Of a DNA stretch of 64,000 nt, positions 5,791 through 12,515 are shown in pieces. The notes under the pieces were generated by a model. The model ran no database searches. It was not told where the DNA came from and saw only the letters and a program-made list of their open reading frames with translations. Within the stretch, counting starts at the first letter, position 1. Each line of letters starts with the position of its first letter. The stretch covers positions 3,235,001 through 3,299,000 of the forward strand of contig NZ_CP043869.1 of NCBI RefSeq assembly GCF_008630635.1. Reading direction: 5' to 3'. Source of the stretch: Neptunomonas concharum (GTDB taxonomy: Bacteria; Pseudomonadota; Gammaproteobacteria; Pseudomonadales; Balneatricaceae). A program made the position numbers and the translations under genes.

Positions 5791-5873
5791 CTGCAGCAAA
5801 ACATTCACACAGAGCGGATGCACATAGACGAAAGTCAGGTTATATTGTGTGGAAAAAATGCTGGAGAAAAATC

Positions 5874-6140
5874 ATGAGCGTTATACAAGTAAAAAACAAA
5901 GAGCGCGTCATCAATGAACTAATGCTGTTTATTCGCAAAGTTTTTGCTGAGCCGGAAATTTGCACCATTGCCAAGGAAATTACGCGAAAGCATATGAGCT
6001 CGCCCAACGCCGCCGCTCTGATTGCAGAGGAGTTATCCGCCACTACTAACGTCAAGATCCCTCTTGAGCATAGCGAAGCGGATGACCTGTTTCTTGATCT
6101 ATTGATAGATATTGTTAAAGACGAGACAGCACTGTACTAA
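5874..6140 (+). CDS. Small conserved-looking protein of unknown function
   Basis: I do not recognise this 88-residue protein. It is soluble, probably all helical, with no signal peptide, membrane segment or cysteine-rich motif apart from a single Cys; the C-terminal third is acidic. The ATG at 5874 has GGAG at a good distance, and a TATATT hexamer at 5841-5846 could be its -10 box. It ends four bases before the convergent rlmJ stop. The start context and coding-like composition argue that it is real. Confidence 0.68.
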   Translation: MSVIQVKNKERVINELMLFIRKVFAEPEICTIAKEITRKHMSSPNAAALIAEELSATTNVKIPLEHSEADDLFLDLLIDIVKDETALY

Positions 6141-7021: not shown

Positions 7022-7051
7022 CTGCCATCTGCCGTACGCAAAAGGTATAAT
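7022..7051 (+). promoter_or_regulatory. Predicted promoter of the envelope glycosylation operon
   Basis: A perfect TATAAT (7046-7051) lies 18 bases after CTGCCA (7022-7027, four of six to consensus) in the short gap between rlmJ and the first gene of the five-gene operon. Confidence 0.42.
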
Positions 7052-7093
7052 CGCCAACTTTATTATTTTTTGTTCGGATCTTTGTCCTTTTTC

Positions 7094-8056
7094 ATGCAAA
7101 CACCTTCAACTGACACCCCTTCTTCAAGAAAAAAGCGGTTATCCTGGCTGGCTGGCGGATTGATCTTCGTAGTGATGCTGATCGCTGTTGAAGCACTTGT
7201 TGGCTGGCAAGCGGTGCTAGCACAGTGGAAATCCGTACCCCTCAGCACACTCATACCCGCATTACTACTCTTTGCTCTAAGTTATCTATTAAGAGCTATT
7301 CGTATCTACGATTTATGCCAACCCGCTCTGAAAGGTCGCTTGCTAAGCGTTACCAAGTTGAGCGTATTACACCTCTACGCCAATAATATGCTGCCTATGC
7401 GACTAGGCGAAGGGTTGTTCCCCATTCTGATGAAACGTTATTTTGGTGTGGGTATTGGCGAAGGTATTGCTCGCTTAATCTGGTTAAGAGTATTGGACCT
7501 GCTTATTGCCGGAGCGCTTTTGACTATAACCTTTGGTTATTTTTTCCCACTCTTTTCTATAATCGCCTTCTGCGCCGGTGTCAGTTGTTTGCTGACGGCT
7601 ATCGCCCTGTATCGATTTAAAGGCAAACGCTGGATGCAATCCCACAGACTCTACCCAAAGCTCGAGCCTGTCATTAACAAGCTGCGCATCACAGCACCCC
7701 AGTCTATGAATCAATTCATCCGTGTCGTGGGATGGACCTTTTTATCATGGGGCAGCAAACTAGCGGCCTTAGTTATGGTCACACAAGCGTTACAATCATT
7801 CTCTACCTTTGAGGCGCTAGCAGGGGTGCTCGGTGCTGAGCTGAGTAGTATTTTACCTATACATGGAATCGCAGGTAGCGGCAGCTTTGAAGCTGCATTT
7901 ATGGCTGGCCTTGCACCGCTTGGTTTATTAAGCTCAGAGATTCTGGGCTTAGCCGTAAACCTACACCTCTTTATTTTGGGAGCAACGTCGCTGTTTGCTC
8001 TGATTTGTTTTTGGATTCCCGTTGCTAAAGTAACGCGAGAGGAGATCACTAAATGA
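7094..8056 (+). CDS. UPF0104 membrane protein (MprF-like flippase domain)
   Basis: Polytopic membrane protein of the UPF0104/lysylphosphatidylglycerol-synthase transmembrane family, with about seven or eight hydrophobic segments. The family motif region (NNMLPMRLGEGLFP, then RLIWLRVLDLL) is clear. There is no aminoacyl-transferase domain, so it is the membrane part only. Family members are thought to move lipid-linked substrates across the membrane. Here, next to a polyprenyl-phosphate sugar transferase, it is a candidate flippase for the lipid-linked sugar; that role is inference. The ATG at 7094 has no good ribosome-binding site; a TTG at 7070 is the alternative. Confidence 0.82.
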   Translation: MQTPSTDTPSSRKKRLSWLAGGLIFVVMLIAVEALVGWQAVLAQWKSVPLSTLIPALLLFALSYLLRAIRIYDLCQPALKGRLLSVTKLSVLHLYANNMLPMRLGEGLFPILMKRYFGVGIGEGIARLIWLRVLDLLIAGALLTITFGYFFPLFSIIAFCAGVSCLLTAIALYRFKGKRWMQSHRLYPKLEPVINKLRITAPQSMNQFIRVVGWTFLSWGSKLAALVMVTQALQSFSTFEALAGVLGAELSSILPIHGIAGSGSFEAAFMAGLAPLGLLSSEILGLAVNLHLFILGATSLFALICFWIPVAKVTREEITK

Positions 8057-9090
8057 CTGACACTATCGAAGCTCATGCTCAATCAGCTGAGGGGCTATCC
8101 TCCGTTGAAAAACATCCCTGCGATCAGAGCCTCTCCGTTGTTGTACCTTTTTTCAATGAGGAAGAAAATATCCGCCCTTTCATGGAAGAGGTACACGCAG
8201 CCCTAAAAGACTACCCCGGGAAATGGGAACTTATCGCGGTCAACGACGGTAGCCGAGATCGTACTGCGTCCGCGCTTGATGCAGCAGTTGCGGAGTATGG
8301 CAGTCACGTTCATGTTATCCACTTCGCCCGCAACTTTGGCCAGACTGCTGCTATGCAGGCAGGTATCGATGCTGCCCGCGGCGAACTCATTGCAACCCTT
8401 GATGGTGATTTACAGAACGATCCTGCTGATATCCCTAAACTCATCGTTGCGCTTGAAGAGCGGGATTTAGATATGATCAGCGGCTGGCGTAAAGATCGCC
8501 AAGATGCAGCGATCAAGCGTAAACTCCCCTCCCGCATTGCCAACTGGCTTATCCGAAAAAACACCGGTGTTTATGTAAACGACTACGGCTGCAGTTTGAA
8601 AGTGTACCGCTCATGGGTCATAAAACAGGTACACCTCATGGGAGAGATGCATCGTTTCATTCCAGCCTGGGTTGCCTGTGTAACGTCTCCTGACCGCATC
8701 AGCGATATGCCGGTTAACCACCGAGCTCGTCAGTTTGGCACATCAAAGTACGGAATCTCCCGAACGATTCGTGTGATTCTGGATCTATTAGCGGTGTTCT
8801 TCTTTATGCGCTTTTCTCGCCGCCCGGGTCACTTCTTTGGATCAATCGGTTTATTTCTCGGCACGATTGGCGGCCTGATTCTTACTTACCTATTTGGTGT
8901 CAAGATTTTCATGGGGGAGGATATCGGTAATCGTCCATTACTATTTACCGGCATATTATTTGTGATGACCAGTGCCCAATTGATTACAACCGGCGTTCTT
9001 GCGGAAATTCTTACACGCAGTGCTGCACCCGTACAGATGCCCGTTCGCCCATCAACCAACCCACCCGCAGAAAGAGGCTGGAGTGAATAA
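8053..9090 (+). CDS. Family 2 glycosyltransferase, polyprenyl-phosphate sugar synthase (ArnC/RgtE/DPM1 type)
   Basis: Transfers a sugar from a nucleotide donor to polyprenyl phosphate on the cytoplasmic face. The GT-A domain carries VPFFNEEENI (31-40), VNDGSRD (63-69) and a D-x-D site in TLDGDLQND (115-123), the pattern of DPM1, ArnC and GtrB. Two C-terminal membrane helices (about 258-282 and 294-316) anchor it. At 345 residues it matches ArnC/RgtE in length. It overlaps the preceding gene by ATGA. The adjacent epimerase gene suggests a UDP-galacturonate donor. Confidence 0.88.
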   Translation: MTDTIEAHAQSAEGLSSVEKHPCDQSLSVVVPFFNEEENIRPFMEEVHAALKDYPGKWELIAVNDGSRDRTASALDAAVAEYGSHVHVIHFARNFGQTAAMQAGIDAARGELIATLDGDLQNDPADIPKLIVALEERDLDMISGWRKDRQDAAIKRKLPSRIANWLIRKNTGVYVNDYGCSLKVYRSWVIKQVHLMGEMHRFIPAWVACVTSPDRISDMPVNHRARQFGTSKYGISRTIRVILDLLAVFFFMRFSRRPGHFFGSIGLFLGTIGGLILTYLFGVKIFMGEDIGNRPLLFTGILFVMTSAQLITTGVLAEILTRSAAPVQMPVRPSTNPPAERGWSE

Positions 9091-10648
9091 AACGCCACCT
9101 GTATCAGCAAGCTTACCGTTCCTTTTATCTACGCCAGTACTTATTGTACTGGCGCTGGTAAGCGCATTTGGTTATGCGGCATGGTTGCCTCTATTTGACC
9201 TAGATGAAGGGGCCTTCACAACAGCTACTCGCGAAATGCTGGAAACCGGCAATTGGGTTTCCACCTACATGAATGGTGTGCCAAGACACGACAAGCCCAT
9301 CATGATCTATTGGCTACAGGCAATAAGCGTTTCTGGCTTCGGCCTAAATACACTGAGCCTTCGTCTGCCTTCTTGTTTAGCTGCGCTTGGATGGATTTGG
9401 ATAAGCTACCGCTTTGTTAAAGAGCAACGTAACGATACAGAAGCCAGAGCAATGGTGTGGCTGTTGGCTGCTCTGCCTCTGGCCAGTGTCATATTCAAAG
9501 CCGCTATAGCGGATGCACTACTTAATTTCTTATTATGTGCAGCCTTCTTTGATATCTACCGCTACTACCAGACACCATCAACCAAGCGACTGGTATGGAT
9601 CAGCATCTGGCTAGGTTTAGGCTTTTTAACAAAAGGACCTGTTGCCTGCGCGCTCCCTCTGAGCGCCAGTTTAATTTTATTTGCCTCAGAAGGACGCTTC
9701 AAAGACTGGCTCAGAGCCATCTTTCACCCCATTAGTTTGACCATTTTTATCCTAATCGTGCTGCCTTGGCATATTGCTGTTTACATCGATCAAGGTTGGG
9801 AGTTCTTCAGAGGTTTCTACCTCAAACACAACATCGACCGCTTTAGCAGCACAATGGAAAGCCATGGCGGCAACCCCTTTTATTACGTCGTCTTACTCCC
9901 CCTTCTGCTGCTACCCTTTACAGGACTGATCTGGCCGGTTATTAAATCGCTCTTTGTACAACGCCCCCGTGGATTAGAACTTTATCTACTCACGTGGTTT
10001 TTACTCGTACTCGCCATTTTTTCTTTCTCAAAAACCCAGCTTCCCCACTATATTCTCTACGGCATTACACCTGTCTTAATACTGATGGCAAGACATCTAT
10101 GCCATGCTGGTCGCTGGTCGCTGGGGGCTCCCGCTTTGGGCTTATTACTCTTTAGCCTTCTGCCACTGCTCTTTACGTATGCTGCAGACCAATCCAATAA
10201 GCCGTTTGACAAAGCCGTGCTACTTTTAGCAGCACAGGAGTACACCCTTGTCTTTAAAATCCTCTCTGTAGCGGGGGTTGCATTAGCTATCTCACTGCTG
10301 TTACTCAAACGCTTTAATACCCCAAGCCGTTTATTGGCAGGTGCCGCAGGCTGCATGCTTTCTTTCAACTTTCTGCTACTGCCGCTCATTGGCGCTGCTC
10401 AGCAAGAACCAGTTCGCGAAGCCGCACATATGGCGAAGAGCTTAGGGGGGCCAATCGTCACATATGGAATCAACATGCCTAGTTTTTCAGTTTATATGAA
10501 CCAAATTGTAACTCGACGCGCTCCTCAGAAAGGGGAGATGGTATTAACGCGGGTCGCCCAGAAAGAGAGCCTTTATGCGCTAGACCCAAATGCATCCTTT
10601 AGCCTACTTTTTAGCAAGGGCGGCGTGGAGCTGTATCGTTATGATTAA
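9083..10648 (+). CDS. ArnT/Rgt-like family 39 glycosyltransferase
   Basis: Integral-membrane GT-C enzyme that uses a polyprenyl-phosphate sugar on the periplasmic side. The first periplasmic loop holds the catalytic acidic pair in LDEGAF, and KGP and GGNPFYY motifs of the ArnT/PMT_2 family follow. About twelve membrane helices are predicted over 522 residues. The GTG at 9083 overlaps the GT2 stop by eight bases and follows GAGG. Relatives attach aminoarabinose or galacturonic acid to lipid A or the LPS core; the acceptor here is not known. Confidence 0.87.
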   Translation: MNKTPPVSASLPFLLSTPVLIVLALVSAFGYAAWLPLFDLDEGAFTTATREMLETGNWVSTYMNGVPRHDKPIMIYWLQAISVSGFGLNTLSLRLPSCLAALGWIWISYRFVKEQRNDTEARAMVWLLAALPLASVIFKAAIADALLNFLLCAAFFDIYRYYQTPSTKRLVWISIWLGLGFLTKGPVACALPLSASLILFASEGRFKDWLRAIFHPISLTIFILIVLPWHIAVYIDQGWEFFRGFYLKHNIDRFSSTMESHGGNPFYYVVLLPLLLLPFTGLIWPVIKSLFVQRPRGLELYLLTWFLLVLAIFSFSKTQLPHYILYGITPVLILMARHLCHAGRWSLGAPALGLLLFSLLPLLFTYAADQSNKPFDKAVLLLAAQEYTLVFKILSVAGVALAISLLLLKRFNTPSRLLAGAAGCMLSFNFLLLPLIGAAQQEPVREAAHMAKSLGGPIVTYGINMPSFSVYMNQIVTRRAPQKGEMVLTRVAQKESLYALDPNASFSLLFSKGGVELYRYD

Positions 10649-11471
10649 ACGTATCGACAACTTCTTAACAAGCGATCAAGCGCGCTGGCCTAAACGGCAG
10701 CCCTTTGATGAACAGCTTTTAAAAGTTGCACTCATCGCCTTAGCAATAGGTACGCTACTGCTCATGATCGATGGGCTATCGACTGGTTTTGACTTCGTAC
10801 AGATGTTGAGCCTAATGCTCCCCCCTATCCTTTGGGAACACATTACATTTATGGGAGACACCTTAGTTGTCCTCACCTTAGCCCTGCTATTTGCTTTTCG
10901 TTATCCTCATCTACTACTTGCTCTGCTACTTACAGCCATTATTGGCACATTAATTACCCATGGCATTAAGCCTTGGTTAGCGACCCCAAGACCACCGGCC
11001 ATTTTGGAACCCGGAACATTTCAACTAATTGGTTCCAGTATTAGCAAAAAGAGTATGCCTTCTGGACACACGTTGACGGCTTTTGCCGCTGCAGGATTAT
11101 TAACCCGTCTTACAGCAGACCGTGCTCTACAATATCTGATCTTGATAGCAGCATGCTTTGTTGGTTGGTCTCGCGTTGCCGTCGGAGTACATTGGCCTGC
11201 CGACGTTTTAATGGGTGCTGCGGGCGGACTGATATCTGCTTGGGCCGGGCTGAAACTCTGTGACCGCTGGCAGCATCGTTTTCGTGGATGGGGTTATTTA
11301 ACGCTACTAGGCATTCATGGATTATGTGCCATCGCCCTTTTAGGGTACAACGGCGGAATGCCCCATACAGGTCTTTTCAGCTTATTGACAGGTCTTATCT
11401 GTCTTGGGTTTAGTTTTTATCAGCTTAGTCTTCGCGGCTTTGCTCCGAAGATCCATCTTTTCAGGAGATAA
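10641..11471 (+). CDS. PAP2-family membrane phosphatase (LpxE-like candidate)
   Basis: Membrane lipid phosphatase with all three catalytic blocks intact: K110 to R117-P118 (KPWLATPRP), PSGH at 140-143, and S177-R178 to H184 to D188 (SRVAVGVHWPAD). There are several flanking membrane helices over 276 residues. Relatives act on lipid A phosphates (LpxE/LpxF), undecaprenyl diphosphate or phosphatidylglycerol phosphate. The operon context favours a lipid A or polyprenyl substrate, but motifs alone do not separate these. The ATG overlaps the GT39 stop by eight bases. Confidence 0.87.
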   Translation: MIKRIDNFLTSDQARWPKRQPFDEQLLKVALIALAIGTLLLMIDGLSTGFDFVQMLSLMLPPILWEHITFMGDTLVVLTLALLFAFRYPHLLLALLLTAIIGTLITHGIKPWLATPRPPAILEPGTFQLIGSSISKKSMPSGHTLTAFAAAGLLTRLTADRALQYLILIAACFVGWSRVAVGVHWPADVLMGAAGGLISAWAGLKLCDRWQHRFRGWGYLTLLGIHGLCAIALLGYNGGMPHTGLFSLLTGLICLGFSFYQLSLRGFAPKIHLFRR

Positions 11472-11473
11472 CA

Positions 11474-12472
11474 ATGAGATTTTTAGTGACAGGCGCTGCT
11501 GGTTTTATCGGTTTTCATATGTCACTTCGTCTTCTGAAAGAAGGGCACGAAGTGGTAGGGCTGGATAATATCAATGACTACTATGATCCAAAACTCAAAA
11601 CGGATCGTTTAGCCATGTTAGAACCCTTTAGTCATTTTACTTTCCGTCAGTGTGATTTAGCGGATAAAGAAGGGGTTGAAAAAATCTTTCAGGAGGCACC
11701 GATCCAACGTGTCATCCATCTTGGTGCACAAGCAGGCGTAAGGCACTCTCTTAATAAGCCATTTGACTATGCCAGCTCTAACTTGGTTGGCACATTAGTT
11801 ATCCTTGAATGCTGTCGCCATTTTAAGGTTGAGCACCTAGTCTATGCATCATCCAGCTCTGTCTATGGTACGAATACGAAGATTCCTTTTTCAACCACCG
11901 ACAGTGTTGACCATCCTGCATCTCTTTATGCGGCAACAAAGAAAAGTAATGAATTAATGGCTCACAGCTATTCACATTTATATAACATCCCGACAACAGG
12001 CCTGCGCTTCTTTACGGTATACGGGCCATGGGGGCGGCCTGACATGGCACCTATGCTATTCGCTAGCGCTATCTCTGAGGGCCGCCCTATCAAGGTGTTC
12101 AATCATGGAAAAATGCGTCGAGATTTCACATATATTGATGACATCATTGAAAGTATTTTCCGCATCCAGAACATCATCCCTCAAGCCAACCCAGACTGGT
12201 CAGGAGAAGCCGATGAAAGCGCAGCGCCTTATAAGGTTTACAATATCGGAAATAATCAACCAGTAGAATTAGAAAGCTTTATTCAACATATGGAAACTGC
12301 ATTAGGCATGAAAGCCGAAAAAGAGTATTTGCCTATGCAGCCGGGAGATGTGGTAGAAACGTTTGCCGATATAGATGCTTTAAGCGCAGCCACAGGTTTT
12401 AGCCCAAGCACCCCAATTGACCAAGGCATCGAGCGCTTTATTGAGTGGTATCGCGACTATTACTCTGCCTGA
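11474..12472 (+). CDS. Nucleotide-sugar epimerase, UDP-glucuronate 4-epimerase type
   Basis: Extended short-chain dehydrogenase with the NAD-binding GAAGFIG (7-13), Ser in YASSSSVYG (124-132) and the catalytic Y152-x-x-x-K156. The regions LDNINDYYDPKLK and RFFTVYGPWGRPDMA are typical of the CapI/GlcA-epimerase group, which converts UDP-glucuronate to UDP-galacturonate. At 332 residues it has the normal length. It starts two bases after the PAP2 stop and closes the operon. The UDP-glucose dehydrogenase needed to make UDP-glucuronate is not in the window. Confidence 0.87.
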   Translation: MRFLVTGAAGFIGFHMSLRLLKEGHEVVGLDNINDYYDPKLKTDRLAMLEPFSHFTFRQCDLADKEGVEKIFQEAPIQRVIHLGAQAGVRHSLNKPFDYASSNLVGTLVILECCRHFKVEHLVYASSSSVYGTNTKIPFSTTDSVDHPASLYAATKKSNELMAHSYSHLYNIPTTGLRFFTVYGPWGRPDMAPMLFASAISEGRPIKVFNHGKMRRDFTYIDDIIESIFRIQNIIPQANPDWSGEADESAAPYKVYNIGNNQPVELESFIQHMETALGMKAEKEYLPMQPGDVVETFADIDALSAATGFSPSTPIDQGIERFIEWYRDYYSA

Positions 12473-12493: not shown

Positions 12494-12515
12494 CCAGCGT
12501 CTTAACGGACGCTGG
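12494..12515. terminator. Convergent hairpin between epimerase and response regulator
   Basis: An 8-bp perfect stem (CCAGCGTC / GACGCTGG) with a 6-base loop that contains the stop codon of the response regulator. AT-rich tracts on both sides would let it terminate in either direction, although the T runs are broken. Confidence 0.6.

Follow-up and report, generated by a model that had tools for sequence, protein, structure and literature searches.

A stand-alone UPF0104 membrane protein of Neptunomonas concharum is probably (with a probability of about 0.7) a flippase for a polyprenyl-phosphate sugar, and as such probably the missing inner-membrane carrier of its pathway. Our best reading is a flippase or scramblase with the MprF fold that acts on undecaprenyl-phosphate-GalA in place of GtrA or ArnEF; we infer transport, direction, sugar and acceptor. 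The original prediction, that the protein could fill a missing flippase step, gains support from the lack of a GtrA or ArnEF-like gene elsewhere in the genome, from a recurring link to a GT2 glycosyltransferase gene, from the separate clade that the protein belongs to and from its fold, that of the MprF flippase domain. Transport as such and the exact sugar are predictions from this context. The window mentioned below is the whole stretch of 64,000 nucleotides that was analysed.

The reading frame is open from 7070 to 8056 on the forward strand. Its most likely start is the ATG at 7094, which gives a membrane protein of 320 aa. The start codon of GT2, at 8053, lies inside the UPF0104 stop codon (ATGA). 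The predicted overlap with a polyprenyl-phosphate-sugar synthase gene was confirmed, with a length of 4 bp and a GT2 of the ArnC/RgtE type as the partner. A ribosome-binding-like GAGGAG is located ~9 nt upstream of the GT2 start. The operon encodes the GT2 synthase and the GT-C transferase together with the flippase candidate, the first gene, which would do the flipping (Table 1). The GTG start of the GT-C gene was deduced from the sequence, and the queries were run with 9077–10645. To the left of the operon lies rsmJ in divergent orientation, adjoined by a 97-aa open reading frame (5847–6137) with no match in Pfam or NCBIfam. In the region, 15 terminator-like sites were found vs 5.9 expected. 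Promoter-like sites numbered 8 vs 8.0 expected by chance, so their number is no better than chance.

Table 1. Features of the UPF0104 operon in the window
Feature	Position	Strand	Evidence
Weakly supported promoter-like site preceding the operon	7022–7051	+	10/12 hexamer matches
Candidate flippase for a polyprenyl-phosphate sugar: UPF0104 (PF03706) membrane protein, MprF-flippase fold	7094–8056	+	Pfam, AlphaFold, fold searches
GT2 polyprenyl-phosphate-sugar synthase, ArnC/RgtE type	8053–9090	+	PF00535, NCBIfam, PDB match, orthologues
ArnT-like GT-C (PMT_2) glycosyltransferase	9083–10648	+	Pfam, NCBIfam, PDB 5ezm ArnT (78.5 bits)
PAP2 phosphatase, LpxE-like; start 10590 or ATG 10641	10590–11471	+	Pfam; best PDB match 6ebu LpxE (53 bits)
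NAD-dependent sugar-nucleotide epimerase, perhaps UDP-glucuronate 4-epimerase	11474–12472	+	PDB and NCBIfam matches
Bidirectional terminator-like hairpin after the operon	12494–12515	.	Two top-ranked sites, one per strand

The protein matched PF03706 (UPF0104, LPG_synthase_TM) over residues 18–300 with 87.7 bits (cut-off 33.4). The match is above the gathering score and covers profile positions 1–300 of 302. No second Pfam domain was found in the 320 aa: the DUF2156 lysyl/alanyl-PG synthase domain of MprF is absent, and there was no match to PF04138 (GtrA). The gene is the sole PF03706 match in the complete one-contig genome (3,561,992 bases, 3.56 Mb).

The other flippase families were searched for in the same genome. 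GtrA (PF04138) had no match, in contrast to 102 of the 229 genomes surveyed in the class, and SMR (PF00893) had no match at E 0.1. EamA (PF00892) had 42 matches. Apart from a fragment of 67 aa that scored under the cut-off, all were in open frames of 292–355 aa. Two-domain-sized proteins are thus present, and no ArnE/F-sized one-domain protein over the cut-off was found among the 42. The predicted lack of a GtrA or ArnE/F-like gene is therefore correct for the operon, and no GtrA, SMR or one-domain EamA over the cut-off turned up elsewhere in the genome. As far as these families go, a flippase is missing from the genome. A GtrA or SMR protein encoded elsewhere as the needed flippase is ruled out (zero of either genome-wide).

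The AlphaFold2 model, built from 50 aligned sequences (alignment A4), had a mean pLDDT of 92.8 and a pTM of 0.90. Alignments A3 and A4 leave out the proteins of L107 and L099, which are of another PF03706 kind, and that of L078, which has a wrong start. In Foldseek, the first five PDB matches were MprF, with modest E values (4.5e-4 to 1.1e-2). VIA-align ranked six MprF chains first (Z 16.2–17.7 over 276–289 residues), and the next chain had a Z of 6.0. The MprF flippase domain (LPG_synthase_TM; PDB 6lvf, 7duw, 9goe), which belongs to the same Pfam family, is by far the best fold match. The UPF0104 profile gave no match to PDB sequences at E 0.01, and the sequence identity to MprF in the alignments was 13–17%. 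Apart from this low identity, the window protein differs from MprF in lacking the LPG synthase domain, in standing alone, in having sugar enzymes as neighbours and in the Lys222/His93 signature of its clade.

The fold also bears on a different role, in which the protein would be an accessory or scaffold subunit holding GT2 and GT-C together and the flipping would be done by another protein (MOP/Wzx or a two-domain EamA). Two-domain-sized EamA proteins are indeed present in the genome, and GT2–ArnT cassettes without UPF0104 exist (G141). However, a mere scaffold fits poorly with the conserved charged residues and with a fold confidently assigned to the MprF flippase domain, and among the annotated genes of the neighbourhoods examined, no gene other than those of the cassette enzymes was seen recurring by GT2. 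We consider the scaffold role highly improbable.

A tree of 62 cassette proteins and 30 other PF03706 proteins placed the cassette proteins in one clade (support 0.94). The distances of UPF0104 and GT2 were correlated over 64 loci (Mantel r 0.91, reached by 0 of 999 permutations), a value that includes the shared species history. The residues that separated the clade from the others, which were a biased sample of 30 high-scoring PF03706 matches, one per genome, include the following four. Lys222 and Arg103 were present in 62 of 62 cassette proteins, and the others had Glu in half of the cases and Lys in 47%, respectively. His93 was found in 95% of cassette proteins (Gly in 80% of the others) and His291 in 98% (Arg in half of the others). 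The window protein carries the clade signature at both Lys222 and His93. Lys222, Arg103, His93 and His291 may line the cavity.

The link to GT2 was checked by searching the GT2 alignment (A1) against genome contigs. The best 80 of at least 585 confirmed matches, from gamma-, beta- and alphaproteobacteria, form the named loci, which were thus chosen by GT2. Any match below E 1e-8 was counted as UPF0104, and distances were taken from its open reading frame to the tblastn match of GT2 rather than to the GT2 start codon. Of these best 80 loci, 65 had UPF0104 no more than 3 kb from the GT2 match, and in 53 the distance was at most 300 bp. The two genes were on the same strand in 45 of the 65 loci and divergent in 20; therefore, the linkage survives rearrangement. 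Within 5 kb, ArnT-like genes were found in 64 of the 80 loci, PAP2 genes in 44 and epimerase-like genes in 12. The remaining 15 loci had no UPF0104 in the stretch examined (L120, L121, L130, L133, L137, L140, L146, L149, L155, L156, L157, L159, L164, L167, L172). Some of these end at a contig edge; the Thiocapsa, Thiocystis and several of the Dechloromonas loci do not.

The GT2 orthologues in rhizobial loci had 55–61% identity. In Rhizobium phaseoli (L153), the order was UPF0104 (minus strand, divergent), GT-C, GT2, GT-C, GT-C, each confirmed by Pfam. By analogy, this layout would correspond to an rgtA/B/C/E locus.

The cassettes vary in their PAP2 genes. A PAP2 of 193–198 aa lies between UPF0104 and GT2 in L078, L079, L083 and L086; elsewhere in the cassettes, including that of the window, the longer kind occurs. 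GT-C and PAP2 are each present twice in some loci (e.g. L118, L130), as would be expected if two positions of lipid A were served. Open reading frame L002, examined as a possible GT2 fusion, turned out to be overlapping frames.

The link was also examined in 229 genomes of the class of the window organism. A profile of the cassette UPF0104 proteins found the clade in 24 genomes (E 1e-20 or better), and a GT2 orthologue with at least 56% identity was also found in 24. Both were present in 19 genomes (Fisher 6e-19, a p value that ignores phylogeny). A close ArnT-like enzyme was found in 19 genomes, 16 of which had the clade as well; here too, the p value ignores phylogeny. The expectation that UPF0104 genes would be linked with ArnC-type GT2 genes across genomes is thus borne out by the 65 of 80 loci and the 19 co-occurrences, and the link recurs in a distinct clade with a flippase fold.

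Of the GT2 genes among the matches listed, those with UPF0104 within 5 kb numbered 15 of 24 at an identity of at least 56%, 1 of 12 at 44–50%, 1 of 48 at 35–43% and 4 of 66 below 35%. The neighbourhoods add two adjacent cases (G192, which is not among the matches listed, and G076, at a contig end), leading to 17 of 24. Chance adjacency was rejected as an explanation: the rough chance is ~0.5% per gene vs 15 of 24 among the matches listed. Two GT2 genes of the superfamily stand in tandem in G080, G201 and G174 (L102, L103, L105), and neither UPF0104 nor GtrA was seen within 5 kb of them.

Clade members were rarely found outside such surroundings: 23 of the 24 in the class were within 5 kb of a cassette GT2, ArnT-like or PAP2 gene, and the 24th (G123) had only a weak ArnT-like neighbour (26 bits). 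This placement and the clade with its subfamily-specific invariant residues argue against a general phospholipid scramblase of the YbhN-like kind that is not dedicated to a sugar carrier. Such a scramblase would be in line with the broad scrambling by PaMprF and with the tie of Escherichia coli YbhN to cardiolipin genes, both described in the accessible part of PMC11980842, but we hold it to be very unlikely. If the protein is a scramblase, it could carry other lipids too. The UPF0104 frame of G206 (L198:3700–4907) contains stops and adjoins a PAP2 gene, in a genome without a close GT2 or ArnT. It is possibly a decaying cassette or a sequencing error.

GtrA was counted in the same way. Among the matches listed, none of the 24 GT2 genes with at least 56% identity had GtrA within 5 kb, and neither did any of the 12 with 44–50% or of the 48 with 35–43%; below 35% identity, 26 of 66 did. 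UPF0104 and GtrA were never both within 5 kb of the same GT2 (0 of 150 among the matches listed). At the distant GT2 genes, GtrA thus has a place comparable to that of UPF0104, and GtrA has been proposed to flip the loaded carrier (PMC11127046, accessible part). This speaks against carrier recycling, in which UPF0104 would not flip the loaded carrier outward but, once GT-C has used the sugar, bring the free undecaprenyl phosphate back from the outer leaflet to the inner one. The same pathway needs such recycling, and the MprF fold can scramble many lipids (PMC11980842, as far as accessible). However, both known recycling families are already present in the genome, DedA/VTT with two matches and DUF368 with one. 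We therefore regard recycling as the task of UPF0104 as unlikely.

The partner enzymes indicate what the flippase might carry. The best PDB match of GT2 was ArnC (8vxh, 162.8 bits), followed by the sll0501 enzyme (5eke, 86.6 bits), which we take to be a GtrB. In NCBIfam, the best matches were ArnC (186.6 bits, model cut-off 529) and PgfS (116.7 bits), both below the cut-off. Among 12 PDB entries listed for the epimerase, 5u4q reached 480 bits, 6zl6 174 bits and MoeE5 (6kv9) 119 bits; the latter two are presumably UDP-glucuronate 4-epimerases. The best NCBIfam match of the epimerase was GalE (153.9 bits, below the cut-off of 262.3). Three NDP-sugar dehydrogenases over the cut-off were found in the genome. 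If the UPF0104 protein is a polyprenyl-phosphate-sugar flippase, the evidence leans towards GalA as the sugar. This remains uncertain because the nearest PDB entry of the epimerase, 5u4q, carries another name (dTDP-glucose 4,6-dehydratase, given by its depositors).

Together, the operon enzymes would fit a route from UDP-GalA via polyprenyl-phosphate-GalA to GalA on lipid A or core, by analogy with the rhizobial Rgt pathway, a known polyprenyl-phosphate-GalA pathway whose enzyme functions are described in PMC7663294 (accessible part). The epimerase would convert UDP-GlcA to UDP-GalA, and GT2 would load GalA onto undecaprenyl phosphate at the inner face. UPF0104 would then flip or scramble the undecaprenyl-phosphate-GalA across the inner membrane through an MprF-type cavity, out of the cytoplasmic leaflet and into the periplasmic one. 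In the periplasm, the ArnT-like GT-C would attach GalA to lipid A or core, once the LpxE-like PAP2 enzyme had stripped a phosphate from lipid A.

The UPF0104 clade was missing from five of the 24 genomes of the class that carry a GT2 orthologue (G009, G026, G064, G141, G172). Therefore, the clade is not the only solution. In G009, G026 and G172 (L091, L092, L093), no close ArnT-like gene adjoins GT2; in G172, the neighbour of this kind is weak (52 bits). Because both UPF0104 and a close ArnT-like enzyme are absent alongside, the GT2 type in these three loci may serve another acceptor. In L092, GT2 stands among other glycosyltransferase genes. G064 and G141 have GT2 and a close ArnT-like enzyme, yet no PF03706 match at all, and therefore the pathway may run without UPF0104. 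The GT2 contig of G064 ends 456 bases upstream. G141 has a confirmed GtrA gene (L192:5238–5627) with no adjoining GT2 within the stretch examined, and this GtrA is a possible replacement flippase.

In G053, GT2, GtrA and an ArnT relative (33% identity) are located side by side. Among 23 genomes with an ArnT-like match of at least 176 bits, GtrA was present in six of the seven that lack the clade vs four of the 16 that have it (post hoc test, p 0.019). These genomes were picked by score after the data had been seen, and G058 (clade present; a 128-bit fragment at a contig end) was left out. A replacement of the UPF0104 clade by GtrA in some ArnT genomes is only suggested by this. The signal is weak because the set is post hoc, in G031 and G064 GtrA lies beside or inside other GT2 genes, no GT2 adjoins ArnT in G051 and G190, and in G121, counted as being without the clade, a UPF0104 of another kind adjoins GT2.

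One of the sources on the wider family is, we assume, the work of Makarova and colleagues. In its accessible part, all COG0392 proteins are thought to be likely flippases, the archaeal ones being tied to glycosylation via AglD (PMC5898192). The C-terminal domain of Haloferax AglD, an archaeal UPF0104, is a predicted flippase and is likewise coupled to a glycosyltransferase of glycosylation (PMC5898192). AglD is a fusion, whereas the window has separate, overlapping bacterial genes with an ArnT-type transferase. According to the accessible part of PMC11980842, PaMprF scrambles lipids promiscuously, and what it does depends on the enzyme with which it is associated. This fits a stand-alone UPF0104 that is bound to a synthase through a shared operon and overlapping genes.

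Three further systems share parts of this layout. The GT2 and GT-C of the window resemble ArnC and ArnT of the ArnC-ArnE/F-ArnT aminoarabinose pathway. Unlike in that pathway, an ArnE/F-like gene was not found in the genome, UPF0104 stands in its place, and the operon includes an epimerase and an LpxE-like PAP2 gene. The accessible part of PMC11127046 covers three-component systems in which the flippase is GtrA or a protein of the small multidrug type. The GtrA-GtrB-Gtr systems have the same logic of GT2, flippase gene and GT-C (PMC11127046), but they differ in the GtrA that was not seen near the window type of GT2. In Pseudomonas, GpgF is also a UPF0104 protein of a glycolipid operon and a predicted flippase, according to the accessible part of PMC12713373. 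The GpgSDF system differs in its phospholipid substrate and GT4 synthase, and a gpgF mutant still makes the lipid (PMC12713373).

Another related case is the dodecaprenyl-phosphate-GalA pathway of Rhizobium (RgtE with RgtA/B/C/D/F). The one rhizobial locus checked, with GT2, three GT-C genes and UPF0104, resembles the Rgt set; the comparison concerns the gene set. The accessible parts of the literature on the Rgt pathway name no flippase for dodecaprenyl-phosphate-GalA. It is plausible that the stand-alone MprF-fold clade is a further proteobacterial class of polyprenyl-phosphate-sugar flippases, not assigned before and dedicated to undecaprenyl- or dodecaprenyl-phosphate-GalA, and the missing Rgt flippase, with Lys222 helping to select the anionic sugar. 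UPF0104 as a flippase family has already been predicted in print. The new part appears to be the defined pathway, the clade, the partner and the rhizobial case. No assignment of a bacterial UPF0104 clade to ArnC/RgtE-type pathways was found in the open-licence literature, which was represented mostly by titles and abstract openings and is weak evidence of novelty.

Single-sugar polyprenyl-phosphate flippases have largely been assigned by context. According to the accessible part of PMC11127046, the MATE- and SMR-type candidates discussed there still lack direct evidence of flipping. This work adds a case in which the clade and the partner enzyme are defined and a substrate is likely. As the clade is present in rhizobia with a known polyprenyl-phosphate-GalA pathway, the question is testable by one gene deletion. 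If true, the finding would mean that in bacteria the MprF fold handles polyprenyl-phosphate sugars as well as phospholipids.
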